Below the pieces are notes generated by a model. That model was not told the origin of the DNA. It saw only the letters and a list, made by a program, of their open reading frames with translations, and did not search any database. A program made the position numbers and the translations under genes. A DNA stretch of 32,038 nt. Source: a virus. Positions 4,857-28,669 of the stretch are shown here, piece by piece (the stretch's first letter is position 1; each line of letters starts with the position of its first letter). The stretch covers positions 1 to 32,038 of the IMG/VR virus record IMGVR_UViG_3300032331_003005; one strand, written 5' to 3'.

Positions 4857-5437
4857 TGTCAAGGAATATAGGAGCAGGTCTTCAAACCAAATTAGAGGCT
4901 CGCACAGTATTTCTTGCAGATCTAATTGAATTACATTTAGACACACCTCTGTATTTTACCACAACAAATATTAATTTGACCTACAACAGTCCCACATCTG
5001 TGGATTCCAGTGCCACTGTATTTTTAGCACAGGGACAATTCCTTCAATATGGTGAAGTAGTGGAGAGTGCTGATTTACGAGTGGGCACTTTAGAATTAAC
5101 TTTCACAGCAGTGGACAGCACCATGGTGGCAGTGGTTCTTAACAATGATTATATTGATAAACGAGTGGTGATATATCGTGCTGTGTTGGCTTCAGATTAT
5201 TCTTTTACCAGCAATGACGTGTTCATGGTATTTGATGGTTTTGTGACAGGATACAATATCACAGAAGAACAGAATTCAGCCACCCTTGTTTTAACTTGTT
5301 CCAGTCAATTTGCAGACTTTGAAAGAACCAATGGTCGAAGAAGTAATCCTTCTTCACAAAATCTTTATTTTCCCAATGATCGTGGCATGGATTTCTCTCC
5401 ACAGATTGTTAAGGATATCAAGTGGGGCAGGAACTAA
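4856..5437 (+). CDS. Tail hub-associated protein (DUF2163-like N-terminal type)
   Basis: The 193-residue protein has strands FLADLIELHLDTPLYFTTTNINL, a FLAQGQFLQYGEVVES segment and VVIYRAVLASDY followed by VFMVFDGFVTGYNITEEQ. The pattern of 'lieL.l..p.y.t..d..l...g..y...g' then 'v.vyra.ld........v...G.v..........a.l.l.s' is that of the tail-tip proteins grouped as DUF2163 and similar families in GTA-like tail modules. It ends with TAATG overlapping the first GNAT gene. Function (part of the tail tip hub) is inferred from family and context. Confidence 0.6.
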   Translation: MSRNIGAGLQTKLEARTVFLADLIELHLDTPLYFTTTNINLTYNSPTSVDSSATVFLAQGQFLQYGEVVESADLRVGTLELTFTAVDSTMVAVVLNNDYIDKRVVIYRAVLASDYSFTSNDVFMVFDGFVTGYNITEEQNSATLVLTCSSQFADFERTNGRRSNPSSQNLYFPNDRGMDFSPQIVKDIKWGRN

Positions 5438-5895
5438 TGAAAACATTTAGATTTTTAGATCGAAATGACATACAACCCATGTTGGATCTTGCTTATAAAT
5501 TTGTCTATGAGCGAGGATTGGCAGGCACTGATTTTGATAAAACCACATATAATTTTACAGTAAAGAATTGGTTCGTAGATGCGGCCATACATCCACTGGG
5601 CACTTTTATCAATGGTGAATTGATTGGCTTTGCCATGTTGGTGAATGATCGAGTGTTCTATAATAATCGACACAGAGTATCTGTGGATCTTGTTTATGTT
5701 TTGCCTGAATATAGATCGGCACAATACTATCAAGAGTTATTGGATTGTGTGTTTACCATGTGTTCACAAATGGGAGTTGAGGTTGTGAGAACTTCTGCTA
5801 TCAATTATGTGTTGGATCACAATGAACAGCAGGGCATAATGTATAGAAATGGTTTTAAACAAACAGATGCAATTTGGGAGAGAGATGCAGGTTAG
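5437..5895 (+). CDS. GNAT-like acyltransferase 1 (degenerate acyl-CoA loop)
   Basis: The 152-residue protein begins FRFLDRNDIQPMLDLAYKF, then GTFINGELIGFAML, VDLVYVLPEYRSAQYYQELL and MYRNGFKQ, the strand-helix order of GNAT N-acetyltransferases with the closing 'Y...GF' motif. The acyl-CoA pyrophosphate loop, normally R/Q-x-x-G-x-G/A after 'P.yR', reads EYRSAQYYQELL (residues 91-102) and lacks the glycines. The ATG at 5437 overlaps the previous stop (TAATG) and is preferred to the in-frame ATG 15 bases upstream. The second GNAT overlaps its 3' end by 11 bases. It may be a structural derivative in the tail, or an enzyme. Confidence 0.75.
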   Translation: MKTFRFLDRNDIQPMLDLAYKFVYERGLAGTDFDKTTYNFTVKNWFVDAAIHPLGTFINGELIGFAMLVNDRVFYNNRHRVSVDLVYVLPEYRSAQYYQELLDCVFTMCSQMGVEVVRTSAINYVLDHNEQQGIMYRNGFKQTDAIWERDAG

Positions 5896-6340
5896 ACGAT
5901 TGATTCGAGAAGATCTACCGGCACTACTGGAGATGAATCAAAAACAAATAGAAGAGAGTCGATTTCCACATTTAAAAGTCAATGTGACCAAAATGCGTAA
6001 TTGGTATCTTAATTTTATCAACAATCCTCGCAGTGCAGTATTTGTATTAATAGATGATGACAATCAATTGGCTGGTGCGGCCGCAGTAGGTTCAGATCAA
6101 TTCTTTTGGAATTATCATACCTACGTGATGGATTATTTTTTTTACGTTTATCCAGAACATAGACAAGGATTAAATGCAAAATTATTGTATGATGCAATCT
6201 ATCGTTGGGCTGTGGAAATCAAAGCCATTGAAATACAATTGAGTTATGCTTATGGAGATAATCCAGAACGATTGAATCGTTTTTATAGTTTTATGGGATA
6301 TGAAAAAATAGGTGAGCACTATCTTAGGGAGGTGATATAA
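5885..6340 (+). CDS. GNAT-like acyltransferase 2
   Basis: The 151-residue protein starts MQVRRLIREDLPALLEMN, typical of GNAT strand 1-helix 1. DNQLAGAAAVG, MDYFFYVYPEHRQGLNAKLL (with a better-preserved R-Q-G loop at residues 93-95) and RFYSFMGYEKIGEHYLREV follow. The start at 5885 is chosen because it begins the fold and overlaps the preceding gene by 11 bases. The longer frame from 5849 adds only out-of-family residues. It ends one base into the J-like gene. Together with its neighbour it sits where GTA-like tail modules usually carry an NlpC/P60 peptidase. Substrate unknown. Confidence 0.8.
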   Translation: MQVRRLIREDLPALLEMNQKQIEESRFPHLKVNVTKMRNWYLNFINNPRSAVFVLIDDDNQLAGAAAVGSDQFFWNYHTYVMDYFFYVYPEHRQGLNAKLLYDAIYRWAVEIKAIEIQLSYAYGDNPERLNRFYSFMGYEKIGEHYLREVI

Positions 6341-12129: not shown

Positions 12130-12157
12130 TTGACGCATTTGCCAACTGTGTTATAAT
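12130..12157 (+). promoter_or_regulatory. Near-consensus sigma-70 promoter, leaderless
   Basis: TTGACG (12130-12135), 16-base spacer, TATAAT (12152-12157). The predicted start site, about 7 bases downstream, is the A of the ATG at 12164, so the metallopeptidase mRNA should be leaderless. No Shine-Dalgarno sequence precedes the ATG. Confidence 0.85.
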
Positions 12158-12163
12158 GAATGT

Positions 12164-13039
12164 ATGAGCAACACAGGATTACGACCAAGAAACAGCAACG
12201 AACGTGAGATCATGCATCTATGCACACAGGCACATGATTGGCTGGCGGCAGATCTAAAAATTCACAGCAAGATGCAATTTGGCAGAACTGCCTATTGGGG
12301 AGACAACGCATTCCACGCAGGACTATGGATCAATCGCACCCATGAGAGTGTGTTGAACTTCAGGAACCTCTACGGAGCACCGCTATCGCGACTGCTGAGG
12401 ATCATAGCACACGAGGCAAGACACGCAGTGCAACATCAACAGGGCTGGTTAAAAAAGAGTGACAGGGGCACGAGACAACTGGGCCGATGGGAAACAGGTG
12501 AATGGAAGGGCGTGTATTATTCAGGTGCTTATCGCGATGCACCGTGGGAACAGGATGCCAGAGCACACGAAAAGCCCTATGCAGACCGTATCATAGACAG
12601 CGGCATCATTCGCAAGGATCTATTAGACACTGTATTGAGTGGCAGCCAAACACAGGTGGTGATACTGAAAGATGAGACCATGGCGGAGATCACGAAACAA
12701 CATGGCAGGGTGCACCTATACAAGGCCAGCCTACACACACAACAGCAACAGCACCGGAGAGATCAAGACTTTGAGAAGAGAGTCCTAGCAGAGGGATGGC
12801 ATAAAAATAATAAAAATGGTAAGTGGTATCACAGCGACATACCAAATTATAAAGAAAAATTAAAAACCTTTAAAAAAATACACAAAGAATTAGGCACACA
12901 ATACTGTGATCACAGCGTGGCATTCTTGACTGAAACAGAGTATAAGAACACTGCACCAGACGCAAGATTTTGGTCAGCACAGAGAAACAGGACATTCTAC
13001 AAGAGCAGACCCATGCAAGACTCAGATCTTTTGTATTAA
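12164..13039 (+). CDS. Putative zinc metallopeptidase (HExxH)
   Basis: The 291-residue protein has HEARH at residues 83-87 within RIIAHEARHAVQHQQGW, and a downstream acidic segment DAPWEQDARAHEK (E129) suited to be the third zinc ligand of a gluzincin-type peptidase. Similar HExxH proteins with 'PxExxA...E' occur in phages as uncharacterised peptidases. The C-terminal 120 residues are Lys/His-rich, with KNNKNGKWYHSDIPNYKEKLK, and do not resemble a known domain. It forms its own transcription unit with a strong leaderless promoter. It might act on a host protein early, or be a virion-associated peptidase. Confidence 0.7.
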   Translation: MSNTGLRPRNSNEREIMHLCTQAHDWLAADLKIHSKMQFGRTAYWGDNAFHAGLWINRTHESVLNFRNLYGAPLSRLLRIIAHEARHAVQHQQGWLKKSDRGTRQLGRWETGEWKGVYYSGAYRDAPWEQDARAHEKPYADRIIDSGIIRKDLLDTVLSGSQTQVVILKDETMAEITKQHGRVHLYKASLHTQQQQHRRDQDFEKRVLAEGWHKNNKNGKWYHSDIPNYKEKLKTFKKIHKELGTQYCDHSVAFLTETEYKNTAPDARFWSAQRNRTFYKSRPMQDSDLLY

Positions 13040-13433
13040 AAGCATAATCATTTGATAGACATTACTACAGGATTGAGCCCGTAAAGAAGGCGGTTTAAAC
13101 GGTCAATAAGACCTTTATAAAGGTGGTAAAGAGTTTAAAGGTATAAAGTATAGCACTAGGAAATACACCCCTTGTGTCACTCTACTTCAAAACCACAACT
13201 TATCCTACCAAATCCCACCGTAGGCCACCGTAAACCCACTCTTGCCCCACCATTGTCTACCCAATTACTGCCAGGCGAGAGGCCCAAGAGCATCATACGG
13301 GGCAGAGCCCCAGGGCTAAGTCATTGATTTCAAACACTTTTCTACCCATTCCACCGTTCTACAATTACAAGTTGTTCAAACGGCCTTGAGGGTGGCCGTA
13401 TAGAGGCCACACCGTTGGGGGTGGCGATTGTGG
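13040..13433. promoter_or_regulatory. 394-base non-coding region with operator-like repeats
   Basis: No gene is visible between the metallopeptidase and the next promoter. The stretch contains a 14-bp perfect palindrome (13111-13124), TGGTAAAG (13124-13131), CCACCGT at 13215, 13225 and 13351, a GGGGC-AGA-GCCCC hairpin near 13299-13311 and ACGGCC/GGCCGT (13380-13385 / 13394-13399). Pyrimidine-rich and GC-richer than the rest. A regulatory or replication-associated role is possible. Confidence 0.5.
13111..13124. promoter_or_regulatory. 14-bp perfect palindrome ACCTTTATAAAGGT
   Basis: A perfectly symmetric 14-mer followed immediately by TGGTAAAG and, 12 bases on, by another AAAGGTATAAAG. The symmetry fits a dimeric repressor site, and clustering with related half-sites strengthens the case. 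No promoter is clearly placed over it. Confidence 0.5.
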
Positions 13434-13460
13434 TTGACTGCTGTATAGTCGTGTTATAAT
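13434..13460 (+). promoter_or_regulatory. Promoter upstream of the 13493 gene
   Basis: TTGACT (13434-13439) and TATAAT (13455-13460) with a 15-base spacer, a little shorter than ideal. Unlike several other promoters here it is followed by a 25-base leader and a clear AGGAGG Shine-Dalgarno sequence (13482-13487). Confidence 0.65.
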
Positions 13461-13492
13461 AAGAGTATAACAAACAGGAGCAGGAGGCTCTC

Positions 13493-13720
13493 ATGATGAC
13501 ACAAGATCAATTCTATAAACAGTGGCCCATAGAACGAGCCACCAAAGAGGGCAGACTGATAGCGGATCTCAGAGAGCAGGGTTTCTCGTGGGCACAGATT
13601 GACACAGTGTTCGCATCAATGACTTACCCTCAAACACCCTATGCTGGTCAGTGGAGACTGGCAGTGCCTGGATATCCATATGGTGATCAGTATTGTGGCC
13701 GGGTAGAGGCCGCGCGATGA
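13493..13720 (+). CDS. Hypothetical protein, 75 aa
   Basis: An AGGAGG ribosome-binding site 5 bases upstream supports the ATG at 13493 (a second ATG follows directly). The product (MTQDQFYKQWPIERATKEGRL..) has an N-terminal helical half with LREQGFSWAQIDTVFASM, reminiscent of a small HTH, and a Pro/Tyr/Gly-rich C-terminal half with one Cys. It ends with an ATGA overlap to the next gene. Unknown function. Confidence 0.7.
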   Translation: MMTQDQFYKQWPIERATKEGRLIADLREQGFSWAQIDTVFASMTYPQTPYAGQWRLAVPGYPYGDQYCGRVEAAR

Positions 13721-13971
13721 CACAGAGGATAGAGTTTCCGTCCGGAGAGCACTGGGATATAGAGTTATCCCCCGAATTGGTTGCACTGACGCAGAATCTA
13801 TTATGGGATAGAGAGTATGGAGTCAGTGCCAACATCGACACTTTAAAGGATAGTATAAGAGAATACATTGTGGAGGCATTGCCAGAATCATTGCGCCATT
13901 CCACAGTGGAGGATTGGGACACAGTGATATTTCAATTGGAAGACACAGTGGCCGCGGCCCATCCCCTATAG
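13717..13971 (+). CDS. Hypothetical acidic protein, 84 aa
   Basis: Starts at the ATGA overlap with the upstream gene. The product (MTQRIEFPSGEHWDIELS..) is acidic and helical in its second half (KDSIREYIVEALPESLRHS, VIFQLEDTVAAA). No motif recognised. Small acidic proteins of this type in phage early regions are often host-modulating, but nothing here specifies a target. Confidence 0.65.
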   Translation: MTQRIEFPSGEHWDIELSPELVALTQNLLWDREYGVSANIDTLKDSIREYIVEALPESLRHSTVEDWDTVIFQLEDTVAAAHPL

Positions 13972-14221
13972 GCCCCCTGTGGATCTCAGTGGGCCTTGGT
14001 GAGAAGGGTGGCTCATGGTGGCAGAGGCCCGGAGAAAGATTCTCCACAGTGGCCCATGGTGGTGAAAAGTTTTTTACTTTGGTAAAGGGTGCCCCCGTCC
14101 TTTTTGGTTTTACCATTCTGCATAGTGCTTGTAAAATTTTTATAATCTTTCCGGGGCTACCCAACCCCACCGTTTAAATTTTTCATCAAGCCCAACCACC
14201 GCAGAAACTTTACCAAACCAA
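13972..14221. promoter_or_regulatory. 250-base non-coding leader with repeats and inverted TGGTAAA sites
   Basis: Contains a GTGGCYCATGGTGG repeat (14008-14021 and 14049-14062, period 41), a GGAGAA/TTCTCC hairpin (14031-14045) and TGGTAAA sites at 14080-14086 (plus), 14109-14115 (minus) and 14209-14215 (minus). The first two are inverted around 22 bases, and the last lies 6 bases before a -35 box. CCACCGT is at 14167. It looks like a complex control region. Confidence 0.5.
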
Positions 14222-14249
14222 TTGACAGCCTGTGATACTGTGCTATAAT
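14222..14249 (+). promoter_or_regulatory. Consensus sigma-70 promoter
   Basis: TTGACA (14222-14227) and TATAAT (14244-14249), both perfect, separated by 16 bases. Transcript would start near 14256 with an AAGGAG Shine-Dalgarno (14259-14264) before the ATG at 14271. A TGGTAAAG copy on the minus strand (14208-14215) abuts the -35 box, where an operator would be expected. Confidence 0.9.
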
Positions 14250-14270
14250 TGTATTAAAAAGGAGAACACA

Positions 14271-14591
14271 ATGATGAGAAACACACAAACAAGTCCGCTC
14301 TCAGAACGAGAAGCACAACAACAATTGAAAGCCATTCAATACCTCAACACAGGCTTAGAATTGTATGGAGCAGTGCTACGGGCACAGGGCTTCAGCACAG
14401 ATCCTGATCACAATCACTTGATAAGAGGATTGCTTCACGCCCGCGAGGAGTTGGTCAATCACATAGGTCAGAGCATGGAGCCAAGGCTTGACAATTTGAG
14501 ATACCCGTTCCAGGCAGGTGTCCTGCCCAACAAACAGGAGATATTGGCAGAGATATTCGCAGAAAAAACAGCAGACCCCGTGGTAAAATAA
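14271..14591 (+). CDS. Hypothetical protein, 106 aa
   Basis: First gene behind the strongest promoter in the window. The ATG at 14271 has an AAGGAG ribosome-binding site at the right distance. The product is helical and mildly acidic (EREAQQQLKAIQYLNTGLELYG, HLIRGLLHAREELVNHIGQS, ILAEIFAEKTADPVV). No motif or membrane segment identified. It heads an operon with the sigma-r4/alpha-CTD-like gene 22 bases downstream, so the two may act together in takeover of host transcription. Confidence 0.7.
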   Translation: MMRNTQTSPLSEREAQQQLKAIQYLNTGLELYGAVLRAQGFSTDPDHNHLIRGLLHAREELVNHIGQSMEPRLDNLRYPFQAGVLPNKQEILAEIFAEKTADPVVK

Positions 14592-14613
14592 TTTTAACGC
14601 AAAAGGAGACGCT

Positions 14614-15573
14614 ATGAATCGACCCGAGACTGCTCAACAAAAATATTGTCGCCTCAACCCCGAAAAAGTTCGCGAACAACGCAGGCAGAGTAGCCTGCGA
14701 TATTATCACCGCAGGAGAGCCATGGGCCTGGAAACCTCCCAAGATAGATATTATGAAAAGGTCACTAAAAAACACATGGCTTGGTATCGAGCACAACCAT
14801 TGGAATATCGGAAAAAATTCACACAGCAGGGCCGGCCTCGCCAGACCCTGGGAGGAACATATTCCCCAGAGATACGGGCGTGGAATCCCGTTTATCACAG
14901 CATCAATCAGATAAAATCAGCGGTGCGATCAGGTGTCTTGGCCCACGATTCATTGCCCGCTCCATTGAGAGATCTTGTGCCAGATCCCCACCGGGTGCCC
15001 GATTTTCATCGGTTCAAGAAAAAATATGGAGAGACACTGGAGCAGATGGGCCAGAGATTGGGCATCTCCAGAGAGAGGGTGAGGCAAAGATTTGCCAGGT
15101 ATGGCACCGCTGAGCCTGCGGCCATTGCAAAATTACAACAACAAGGGTCCAGTTTCCGTGTGGGTGCTAAAATATTGGTGCGAGCAGGTGTGTCCTCCAT
15201 GGAGGAATTGGCCTCATGGCCCAATCACAAGATTTTGAACATACAGGGCATGAGCGTGAAAAAGTTAGCACAATTGAGGAAATTATATGCGGCACCGGCA
15301 TTTGCCTGTGAGCCAGTGGTTGCTGCCGCGGGACTTCCCGCATCGCTTGGACAGCCATTGACACACATCAATTGCAAAGACATACACGAAAGTTTTTCTG
15401 GCTATGCGGCCGGAACCAAAGTGATTACTCTCTGTGATCGATTGGGAATCAAAAATTTACAAGACATCACAAAATATTCACCATGGCAATTGAGTAATGA
15501 AGTTGCCGTGGGCAAAAAAACCATTGACTTGATTACTCACGTTTTAAAACAGGCAGGTTATGATTGGCATTGA
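14614..15573 (+). CDS. Transcription regulator-like protein: sigma-70 region-4-like HTH plus two RNAP alpha-CTD-like domains
   Basis: The 319-residue product has three visible parts. Residues 1-70 are basic, with two NPEKVREQRRQSSLRYYHRR-like segments. Residues 139-163 read GETLEQMGQRLGISRERVRQR..., the sigma-70 region 4.2 helix-turn-helix that recognises -35 elements. Then come two helix-hairpin-helix units of the RNA polymerase alpha-subunit C-terminal type: 184-226 (VRAGVSSMEELASWPNHKIL, IQGMSVKKLAQLRKLY) and 268-319 (TLCDRLGIKNLQDITKYS, VGKKTIDLITHVLKQAGYDW). The second unit closely follows the alpha-CTD order. An AAGGAG site precedes the ATG. It probably binds DNA as a transcription factor. 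No sigma region 2 is present, so it is not a complete sigma factor. Confidence 0.75.
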   Translation: MNRPETAQQKYCRLNPEKVREQRRQSSLRYYHRRRAMGLETSQDRYYEKVTKKHMAWYRAQPLEYRKKFTQQGRPRQTLGGTYSPEIRAWNPVYHSINQIKSAVRSGVLAHDSLPAPLRDLVPDPHRVPDFHRFKKKYGETLEQMGQRLGISRERVRQRFARYGTAEPAAIAKLQQQGSSFRVGAKILVRAGVSSMEELASWPNHKILNIQGMSVKKLAQLRKLYAAPAFACEPVVAAAGLPASLGQPLTHINCKDIHESFSGYAAGTKVITLCDRLGIKNLQDITKYSPWQLSNEVAVGKKTIDLITHVLKQAGYDWH

Positions 15574-15582
15574 AATAAACTC

Positions 15583-15623: not shown

Positions 15624-16118
15624 ATGAAGAAAATAAAAATTAAACGCACCGGAGGTCCGGCACCAGGCACGCCATCACCCTTGCGGGGTCGACCCTCACC
15701 ACTGAGAGGCAGAACATTTCCCAAGCGATGGCATTCAGGTCCTGACCCAGATCATCACCGATTGTGGAGAGGATTTCTGCTGGCACGCAATCAAGCTCGT
15801 TATTGGAGACAGGCTTGGTCAGTGACATGGGAAGTCTACAGAGACACTCTGTTGCCACATATCCATAATCTAGGTCGCGGCAGAGATGCATACAATTTGG
15901 GTAGAAAAGACAGAACCCTGCCTTGGACCAATGACAATGTGATGGCTGTTCGCAGGAGTGATGTGGTCACGGCTCGCAAAGCCGGACACAGAACCTATCT
16001 ACCACCACACGAGTTGGAGCGTAGACGAGAGGCCATGGAACAATACAAACTGCGAGGATACAAGGGCAAGAGATGGAGAAGATATGATGACAAGGACACA
16101 GACAATGACAAAAAATAA
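15624..16118 (+). CDS. Basic protein, possibly a degenerate HNH-like phage protein
   Basis: The 164-residue protein is very basic, with a Pro/Arg-rich N-terminus (SPLRGRPSPLRGR) and DPDHHRLWRGFLLARNQARYWRQAW, then YNLGRKDRTLPWTNDNVMAVRR. The 'R.D....W..DNV....R' element resembles the C-terminal part of HNH-type proteins found in phage accessory regions, but the Cys and catalytic His pairs of HNH nucleases are not clear. DNA binding is plausible. It has its own promoter, and the next gene overlaps its end by 35 bases. Confidence 0.6.
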   Translation: MKKIKIKRTGGPAPGTPSPLRGRPSPLRGRTFPKRWHSGPDPDHHRLWRGFLLARNQARYWRQAWSVTWEVYRDTLLPHIHNLGRGRDAYNLGRKDRTLPWTNDNVMAVRRSDVVTARKAGHRTYLPPHELERRREAMEQYKLRGYKGKRWRRYDDKDTDNDKK

Positions 16119-28169: not shown

Positions 28170-28292
28170 ATGCCAGTTCATAAAACCAAGGGTGGATACA
28201 AATGGGGCAGTTCTGGCAAGACTTATAGAACTAAAAAAGAAGCATTAAAACAAGCCCGTGCAATCTACGCATCAGGGTATAAAAAAAAGTAA
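28170..28292 (+). CDS. Small conserved basic protein, 40 aa
   Basis: The ORF (28170-28292) is too short to be found by routine limits but is convincing. It encodes MPVHKTKGGYKWGSSGKTYR followed by KKEALKQARAIYASGYKKK, a pattern I recognise in many phages as a short Lys/Gly/Tyr-rich protein beside the portal. The stop TAA overlaps the next start by one base. Function unknown. A minor capsid or DNA-binding protein is possible. Confidence 0.7.
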   Translation: MPVHKTKGGYKWGSSGKTYRTKKEALKQARAIYASGYKKK

Positions 28293-28669
28293 TGGAACCA
28301 AAATTGGTGCACAAGCACCTTTTGATTCGTGCTCTAGTTGATCAGGCTCCTGACAAAGACTTTGATTTAGATTCAGCACTATTAGATCTTGTAACCAGAA
28401 TTGATATGAAAATATTGGCAGGTCCTTTCACTGCCTATTGTCCCAACGAAGGCAATGAGGGTTGGTCAGGCACTTGTATCATAGAAACATCACATATTGC
28501 AATACATTGTTGGAATGAACCCCGGCCCAATGTGATCCAATTGGATGTGTATTCTTGCAAAGATTTTGATATCAATGAAATCACAGATTGGTTAAATCAA
28601 AATTTTGGTATTATGATGATGGATTACAAGTTTTTAGATCGAGAGAACGGTTTCGAATATATACTGTAA
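28292..28669 (+). CDS. speD: S-adenosylmethionine decarboxylase-like (SpeD homologue)
   Basis: The 125-residue protein fits class I prokaryotic AdoMet decarboxylases: HLLIRA (residues 9-14), ETSHIAIHCWNE (65-76), NVIQLDVYSC (80-89) followed by KDFD. In the family, autocleavage before a Ser makes the pyruvoyl cofactor. Here the cleavage serine would be S67, with catalytic H72 and C89. The residue before it is Thr, where the cleaved bond is Glu-Ser in bacterial SpeD. Real SpeD makes decarboxylated AdoMet for spermidine. Phage versions are known and may have another decarboxylase specificity. One-base overlaps on both sides. Confidence 0.85.
   Translation: MEPKLVHKHLLIRALVDQAPDKDFDLDSALLDLVTRIDMKILAGPFTAYCPNEGNEGWSGTCIIETSHIAIHCWNEPRPNVIQLDVYSCKDFDINEITDWLNQNFGIMMMDYKFLDRENGFEYIL

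Follow-up and report, generated by a model that had tools for sequence, protein, structure and literature searches.

A phage accessory gene for a predicted DNA-binding regulator that joins a sigma region 4.2-like helix-turn-helix to two helix-hairpin-helix domains, one of them alpha-CTD-like

An accessory gene of a tailed phage encodes a 319-residue protein, here called the 14614 protein after its start position in the window (the whole stretch of 32,038 nucleotides that was analyzed), in which a basic N-terminus, a helix-turn-helix (HTH) resembling region 4.2 of sigma-70, and two helix-hairpin-helix (HhH) domains are combined. It is, with a probability of about one half, an accessory, early-type regulator that contacts DNA at multiple points and acts on the phage's own early promoters. 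The frame, the HTH match, the predicted alpha-CTD-like fold of the last domain, the promoters and the absence of the gene from the closest long kin record are observations, from which we infer DNA binding, a -35 target, and a regulatory role together with its direction. Multi-contact DNA binding would fit all parts of the protein, and reading of the -35 element is its most specific prediction. The architecture is unusual; the general kind, a phage DNA-binding regulator, is already known. No description of such a fusion turned up in a literature search that covered few subscription journals.

The window is a 32-kb record with genes for tape measure, distal tail, tail fiber, terminase and portal proteins (PHROGs) and for a capsid-like protein (NCBIfam). 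Its terminase and portal proteins are ~50% identical to those of the Pelagibacter phages HTVC111P/112P/026P/202P and of phage DSL-LC06. The open reading frame at 14614 is a genuine gene: the frame is intact, a strong Shine-Dalgarno sequence, AAAGGAG, ends 5 bases upstream of the ATG, and a consensus promoter is present (Table 1). This promoter is followed first by ORF 14271, for which domain searches (run on the frame starting at 14232) and searches for relatives were empty; the two genes are probably co-transcribed. Promoters of the type TTGAC-N15/16-TATAAT occur three times in the window, where 0.24 are expected (2 of 100 shuffled sequences reach three). Each of them immediately precedes an accessory gene, and further ones are found in kin phages. 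Thus, -35-type targets exist in the window.

Table 1. Positions of the 14614 gene, its predicted domains and the associated promoters in the window.
Feature	Positions	Strand	Residues	Basis or context
Gene for multi-domain putative DNA-binding protein	14614..15573	+	1-319	Open frame, ATG, Shine-Dalgarno sequence, domain matches
Basic N-terminal region	14614..14853	+	1-80	Net charge +14, predicted helical
Sigma region 4.2-like HTH (recognition helix SRERVRQ, 152-158)	15013..15090	+	134-159	Pfam
First HhH, NusA C-terminal-repeat-like by sequence	15166..15276	+	185-221	TIGR01954, HHH_5, PDB chains
Second HhH, predicted RNAP alpha-CTD-like fold	15349..15570	+	246-319	Pfam, AF2, VIA-align
106-aa ORF	14271..14591	+		First behind the 14222 promoter
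Sigma-70 promoter TTGACA-N16-TATAAT (perfect, TG before -10)	14222..14249	+		5' of 14271 and 14614
Promoter TTGACT-N15-TATAAT	13434..13460	+		Upstream of ORF 13493
Promoter TTGACG-N16-TATAAT	12130..12157	+		Upstream of ORF 12164

The HTH matches the Pfam profile Sigma70_r4 (PF04545) above the cut-off (E=4.4e-6; 26.5 bits against 24.1), and region 4.2 of sigma is the best match for it in both Pfam and NCBIfam. The initial annotation had called it a near-perfect region 4.2. This is true of the recognition helix, as SRERVRQ is retained in the alignment to RpoS, but the profile is matched only at positions 17-40 of 50, i.e., in its region 4.2 half. SRERVRQ is the counterpart of the sigma-70 segment that includes the -35-contacting residues R584, E585, R588 and Q589. 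Region 4.1, the half that docks onto the beta flap, was not detected by Pfam, and a single helix (131-138, low confidence) is predicted ahead of the HTH. The absence of sigma region 2, also noted initially, was borne out in Pfam and NCBIfam. Thus, the protein shares a region 4.2 HTH with sigma-70 region 4 but carries it in the middle of the chain, with regions 4.1, 2, and 3 undetected. In a search of PDB sequences, the HTH segment retrieved sigma factors, weakly and mixed with designed repeat proteins. An 864-aa Enterococcus plasmid protein likewise contains a lone sigma region 4 HTH and no further sigma regions; since HTHs of the 4.2 type occur in such large proteins as well, the HTH alone is no proof of promoter binding. 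The N-terminal 80 residues have no match in Pfam; phmmer matches of the N-terminus to lipases (E 0.17) were dismissed as chance.

The second HhH resembles the C-terminal domain of the RNA polymerase alpha subunit (alpha-CTD). Its residues 275-312 match the Pfam family RNA_pol_A_CTD (PF03118) with E=0.0015 and 18.6 bits, below the cut-off of 23.8, and among PDB sequences the Helicobacter pylori alpha-CTD aligned to it over 63 ungapped residues (E=0.28). Single-sequence AlphaFold was applied to the whole protein, which was modeled poorly (mean pLDDT 51), and to a construct of residues 164-319, in which the second HhH reached a pLDDT of about 80. When this model was compared with solved structures by VIA-align, the eleven best entries were all alpha-CTDs, with Z-scores of 6.1-7.4, which, being under 8, are not conclusive by themselves, and rmsd values of 2.4-3.0. 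The E. coli alpha-CTD scored Z 7.4 (rmsd 2.4, 66 residues), and the next entries were the p63 SAM domain, RAD51 paralogs and HhH domains of Y-family polymerases (Z 5-6). The top Foldseek match was also an alpha-CTD, at E=0.4, all Foldseek E-values being above 0.1. On the ranking of the structural matches, their Z-scores and the agreement with the weak Pfam match, the assignment of one alpha-CTD-like fold to the modeled domain is reasonably supported.

The likeness to genuine alpha-CTDs (PF03118; 1lb2, 1z3e, 1doq, 2max), the best solved-structure matches of the domain, extends to spacing: 31 residues separate the first DNA-binding position from the GKK(S/T) hairpin in both. In the ungapped alignment, G296, K298 and S299 of the E. 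coli domain correspond to G300, K302, and T303, whereas R265, N268, and E302 are replaced by K269, T272, and L306, respectively; furthermore, no alpha N-terminal domain is attached. R265 and N268 are important for DNA binding by alpha-CTD, and an N268T substitution in the E. coli domain was inactivating at PBAD (PMC11434276). Since both residues are replaced, the second HhH may bind DNA weakly or in another way. No ortholog was found that would show which residues are under selection.

The first HhH is, as judged by its sequence, a generic one rather than specifically alpha-CTD-like. Residues 185-214 match the NCBIfam repeat nusA_Cterm_rpt (TIGR01954; E=2.6e-5, 24.2 bits, below the cut-off of 48.15), the domain as a whole matches Pfam HHH_5 (E=0.025), and a search of PDB sequences retrieved NusA and RAD51 chains, of which the NusA chains were best. 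Pfam gave no PF03118 match in this stretch. The resemblance to NusA is confined to the repeat, as no other NusA domain is present, and residues 164-226 are net basic (+6), in which they differ from NusA. The two HhH segments did not hit each other in BLAST, and their mutual similarity is weak, with a local score above that of 99.6% of shuffles. The initial annotation had ascribed the alpha-CTD pattern to both. In the models, this was upheld for the second, but the first (184-226 in that annotation) was modeled unreliably, at a pLDDT under 50. Hence, of a proposed fusion of an HTH with two alpha-CTDs, the HTH and one alpha-CTD-like fold stand, accompanied by a NusA-type HhH, and the proposed takeover factor becomes an accessory regulator.

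As such a regulator, the protein would hold DNA at several points, including its basic, helical N-terminus. The HTH would read TTGAC-like -35 sequences in the major groove, while the two HhH domains would grip the backbone or the minor groove. By occupying -35 elements, it would most likely regulate the near-consensus sigma-70 promoters of the accessory and early genes. In the simplest version, its own promoter at 14222 would be among the targets, resulting in negative autoregulation. Searches of Pfam, PHROGs, and NCBIfam revealed no catalytic domain, whether of a nuclease, a recombinase, or another enzyme. Besides, the initial statement that the genome has no other clear transcription factor is correct for the other ORFs scanned with Pfam, many of which had no match at all.

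HhH domains occur most often in proteins of repair and recombination. A less probable, yet tenable, explanation is a DNA-binding function outside transcription, such as binding of DNA ends or branches, an accessory role in replication or recombination, or protection of phage DNA, with the HhH domains as the working part and the HTH as an anchor. The HhH domains of RAD51 paralogs and Y-family polymerases, with Z-scores of about 5-6 against the model, are in line with this explanation, as is the product of the downstream gene 15624, which weakly resembles a protein of DSL-LC06 with the annotation PacI-type restriction endonuclease. However, alpha-CTD chains rank higher, the protein lacks a catalytic domain, and its HTH is best matched by sigma region 4.2, all of which speaks against this explanation.

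Searches of phages, plasmids, IMG/VR and GTDB revealed no full-length relative of the 14614 protein. With tblastn against phage and plasmid sequences (E up to 10), the matches were mainly of HTH size, to sigma factors and to the Enterococcus plasmid protein. Pattern scans of IMG/VR and GTDB, which reach close relatives only, found none, and a search of 298 genomes from the phylum of a Gemmatimonadales genome, run without a positive control, was empty. A MobS-like protein of Nitrotoga, matched weakly, was rejected: the match lay outside the recognition helix in a low-complexity alignment, and the protein has no Pfam domain. Among 18 kin records, nothing was found beyond the HTH of one (G011), and none of 12 loci around homologs of 15624 contained a syntenic copy. 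The matching protein of G011 (L084:1459-1875, minus strand) has 138 aa, and its HTH segment is 33% identical over 48 aa (pairwise E=6e-7). Its gene lies directly behind a TTGACA-N16-TATAAT promoter and, like 14614 in the window, upstream of 15624 or its homolog, with one ORF between in G011. Given the common HTH segment, the promoter, and this position, it is plausibly the counterpart of the 14614 protein without the HhH domains. The gene 15624-16118 itself, encoding a conserved basic protein, has homologs in L086, L019, L084, L088, and L107-L115 and forms a stable anchor within the variable region.

The closest long kin record (G003; terminase 94% identical) is collinear with the window but carries other genes in the stretch from 12141 to 15579 (window coordinates) and lacks the 14614 gene. 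In another record (L105:10144-10364), the leader and TTGACA-N16-TATAAT promoter found at 14056-14273 of the window are present (72.9% over 225 bp) with a different ORF behind. The start region is conserved as well between these two leaders (L086:10625-10995 was noted alongside), and G003 shares the upstream part, TTTACTTTGGTAAAGGGTGCCCC, without a mismatch over 23 bases. The GC content is 0.44-0.48 at 10-17 kb of the window and about 0.38-0.40 elsewhere. Accessory genes have a codon index below that of the core genes (0.61-0.75), 14614 being less core-like at 0.525. Together, the comparisons with G003, G011, and L105, with which GC content and codon index agree, suggest a region in which gene cassettes are swapped behind conserved sigma-70 promoters, and the leader at 14056-14273 is a possible site of exchange for early gene cassettes. 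The 14614 gene is an accessory gene and probably one that is rapidly exchanged.

This bears on the takeover of the host polymerase that the initial annotation had proposed, in which the HTH would sit on -35 DNA and the alpha-CTD-like domain would replace the host alpha-CTD or contact the holoenzyme, so that phage promoters are activated and those of the host are starved. Such a role would be suggested by the presence of the HTH and an alpha-CTD-fold domain in one protein and by the NusA-repeat-like middle domain, as NusA repeats contact the alpha-CTD. Moreover, alpha-CTD-like proteins have been named in several other phages, e.g., gp200 of Rhodococcus phage Finch and HhH proteins of 128-135 aa in uncultured Caudovirales phages; gp200, however, has no sigma-like HTH in Pfam and no tblastn similarity to the 14614 protein. 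The proposal found little support and is considered unlikely: region 4.1 is undetected, the residues that bind UP elements are replaced by K and T, one HhH is generic, and the phage promoters are already of the sigma-70 consensus, which should make an activator superfluous. In addition, conservation among kin would be expected of a takeover factor, while close kin, including G003, do without this gene. That the sigma 4.2, NusA-repeat-like, and alpha-CTD-like modules imitate the upstream half of the holoenzyme on promoter DNA and thereby redirect or block the host RNA polymerase appears even a little less likely. To work as such, direct mimicry of the polymerase would need a flap-docking region 4.1, which is undetected, and the R265/N268 pair, which is replaced. 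In phage T4, gp33 is a coactivator that mimics sigma domain 4 and acts by binding the beta flap (PMC2988020). Both are phage proteins with a part in place of sigma domain 4, but gp33 keeps the flap docking, whereas the 14614 protein keeps the -35-reading helix.

The least probable explanation, a remnant or recent chimera that arose by rapid gene exchange and has no present function, would account for the lack of full-length relatives and the less core-like codon index, but is disfavored by the intact frame, the strong Shine-Dalgarno sequence, the consensus promoter, and a codon index that equals that of the conserved neighbor 15624 (0.52) and exceeds that of the shifted frames (0.47-0.48).

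If the 14614 protein indeed binds phage -35 elements, it would represent a promoter-specific regulator built from polymerase-type DNA-reading modules without being a sigma or alpha subunit proper. The finding also points to an accessory region, within a clade akin to the HTVC111P-type pelagiphages, in which genes that have consensus sigma-70 promoters of their own are exchanged behind leaders that stay conserved.

Some other genes of the window deserve mention. The ORF at 12164-13039, with its own TTGACG promoter, encodes a putative metallopeptidase with a weak DUF6782 match and the HExxH-type motif HEARH; other, different-looking HExxH proteins are encoded in the same region in kin (L105:8001-8873, L105:9234-10100, L088:663-1760, and L115:2167-3147). 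In the tail module, an overlapping gene pair (5422-5895 and 5849-6340) shows GNAT acetyltransferase matches in both members (Pfam, 1.1e-6 and 3.5e-5); at this position, DSL-LC06 has an annotated N-acetyltransferase and HTVC111P an annotated toxin-activating lysine-acyltransferase. Finally, a gene for S-adenosylmethionine decarboxylase (28292-28669; Pfam, 5.4e-14), with portal and capsid genes on either side, is probably an auxiliary metabolic gene.
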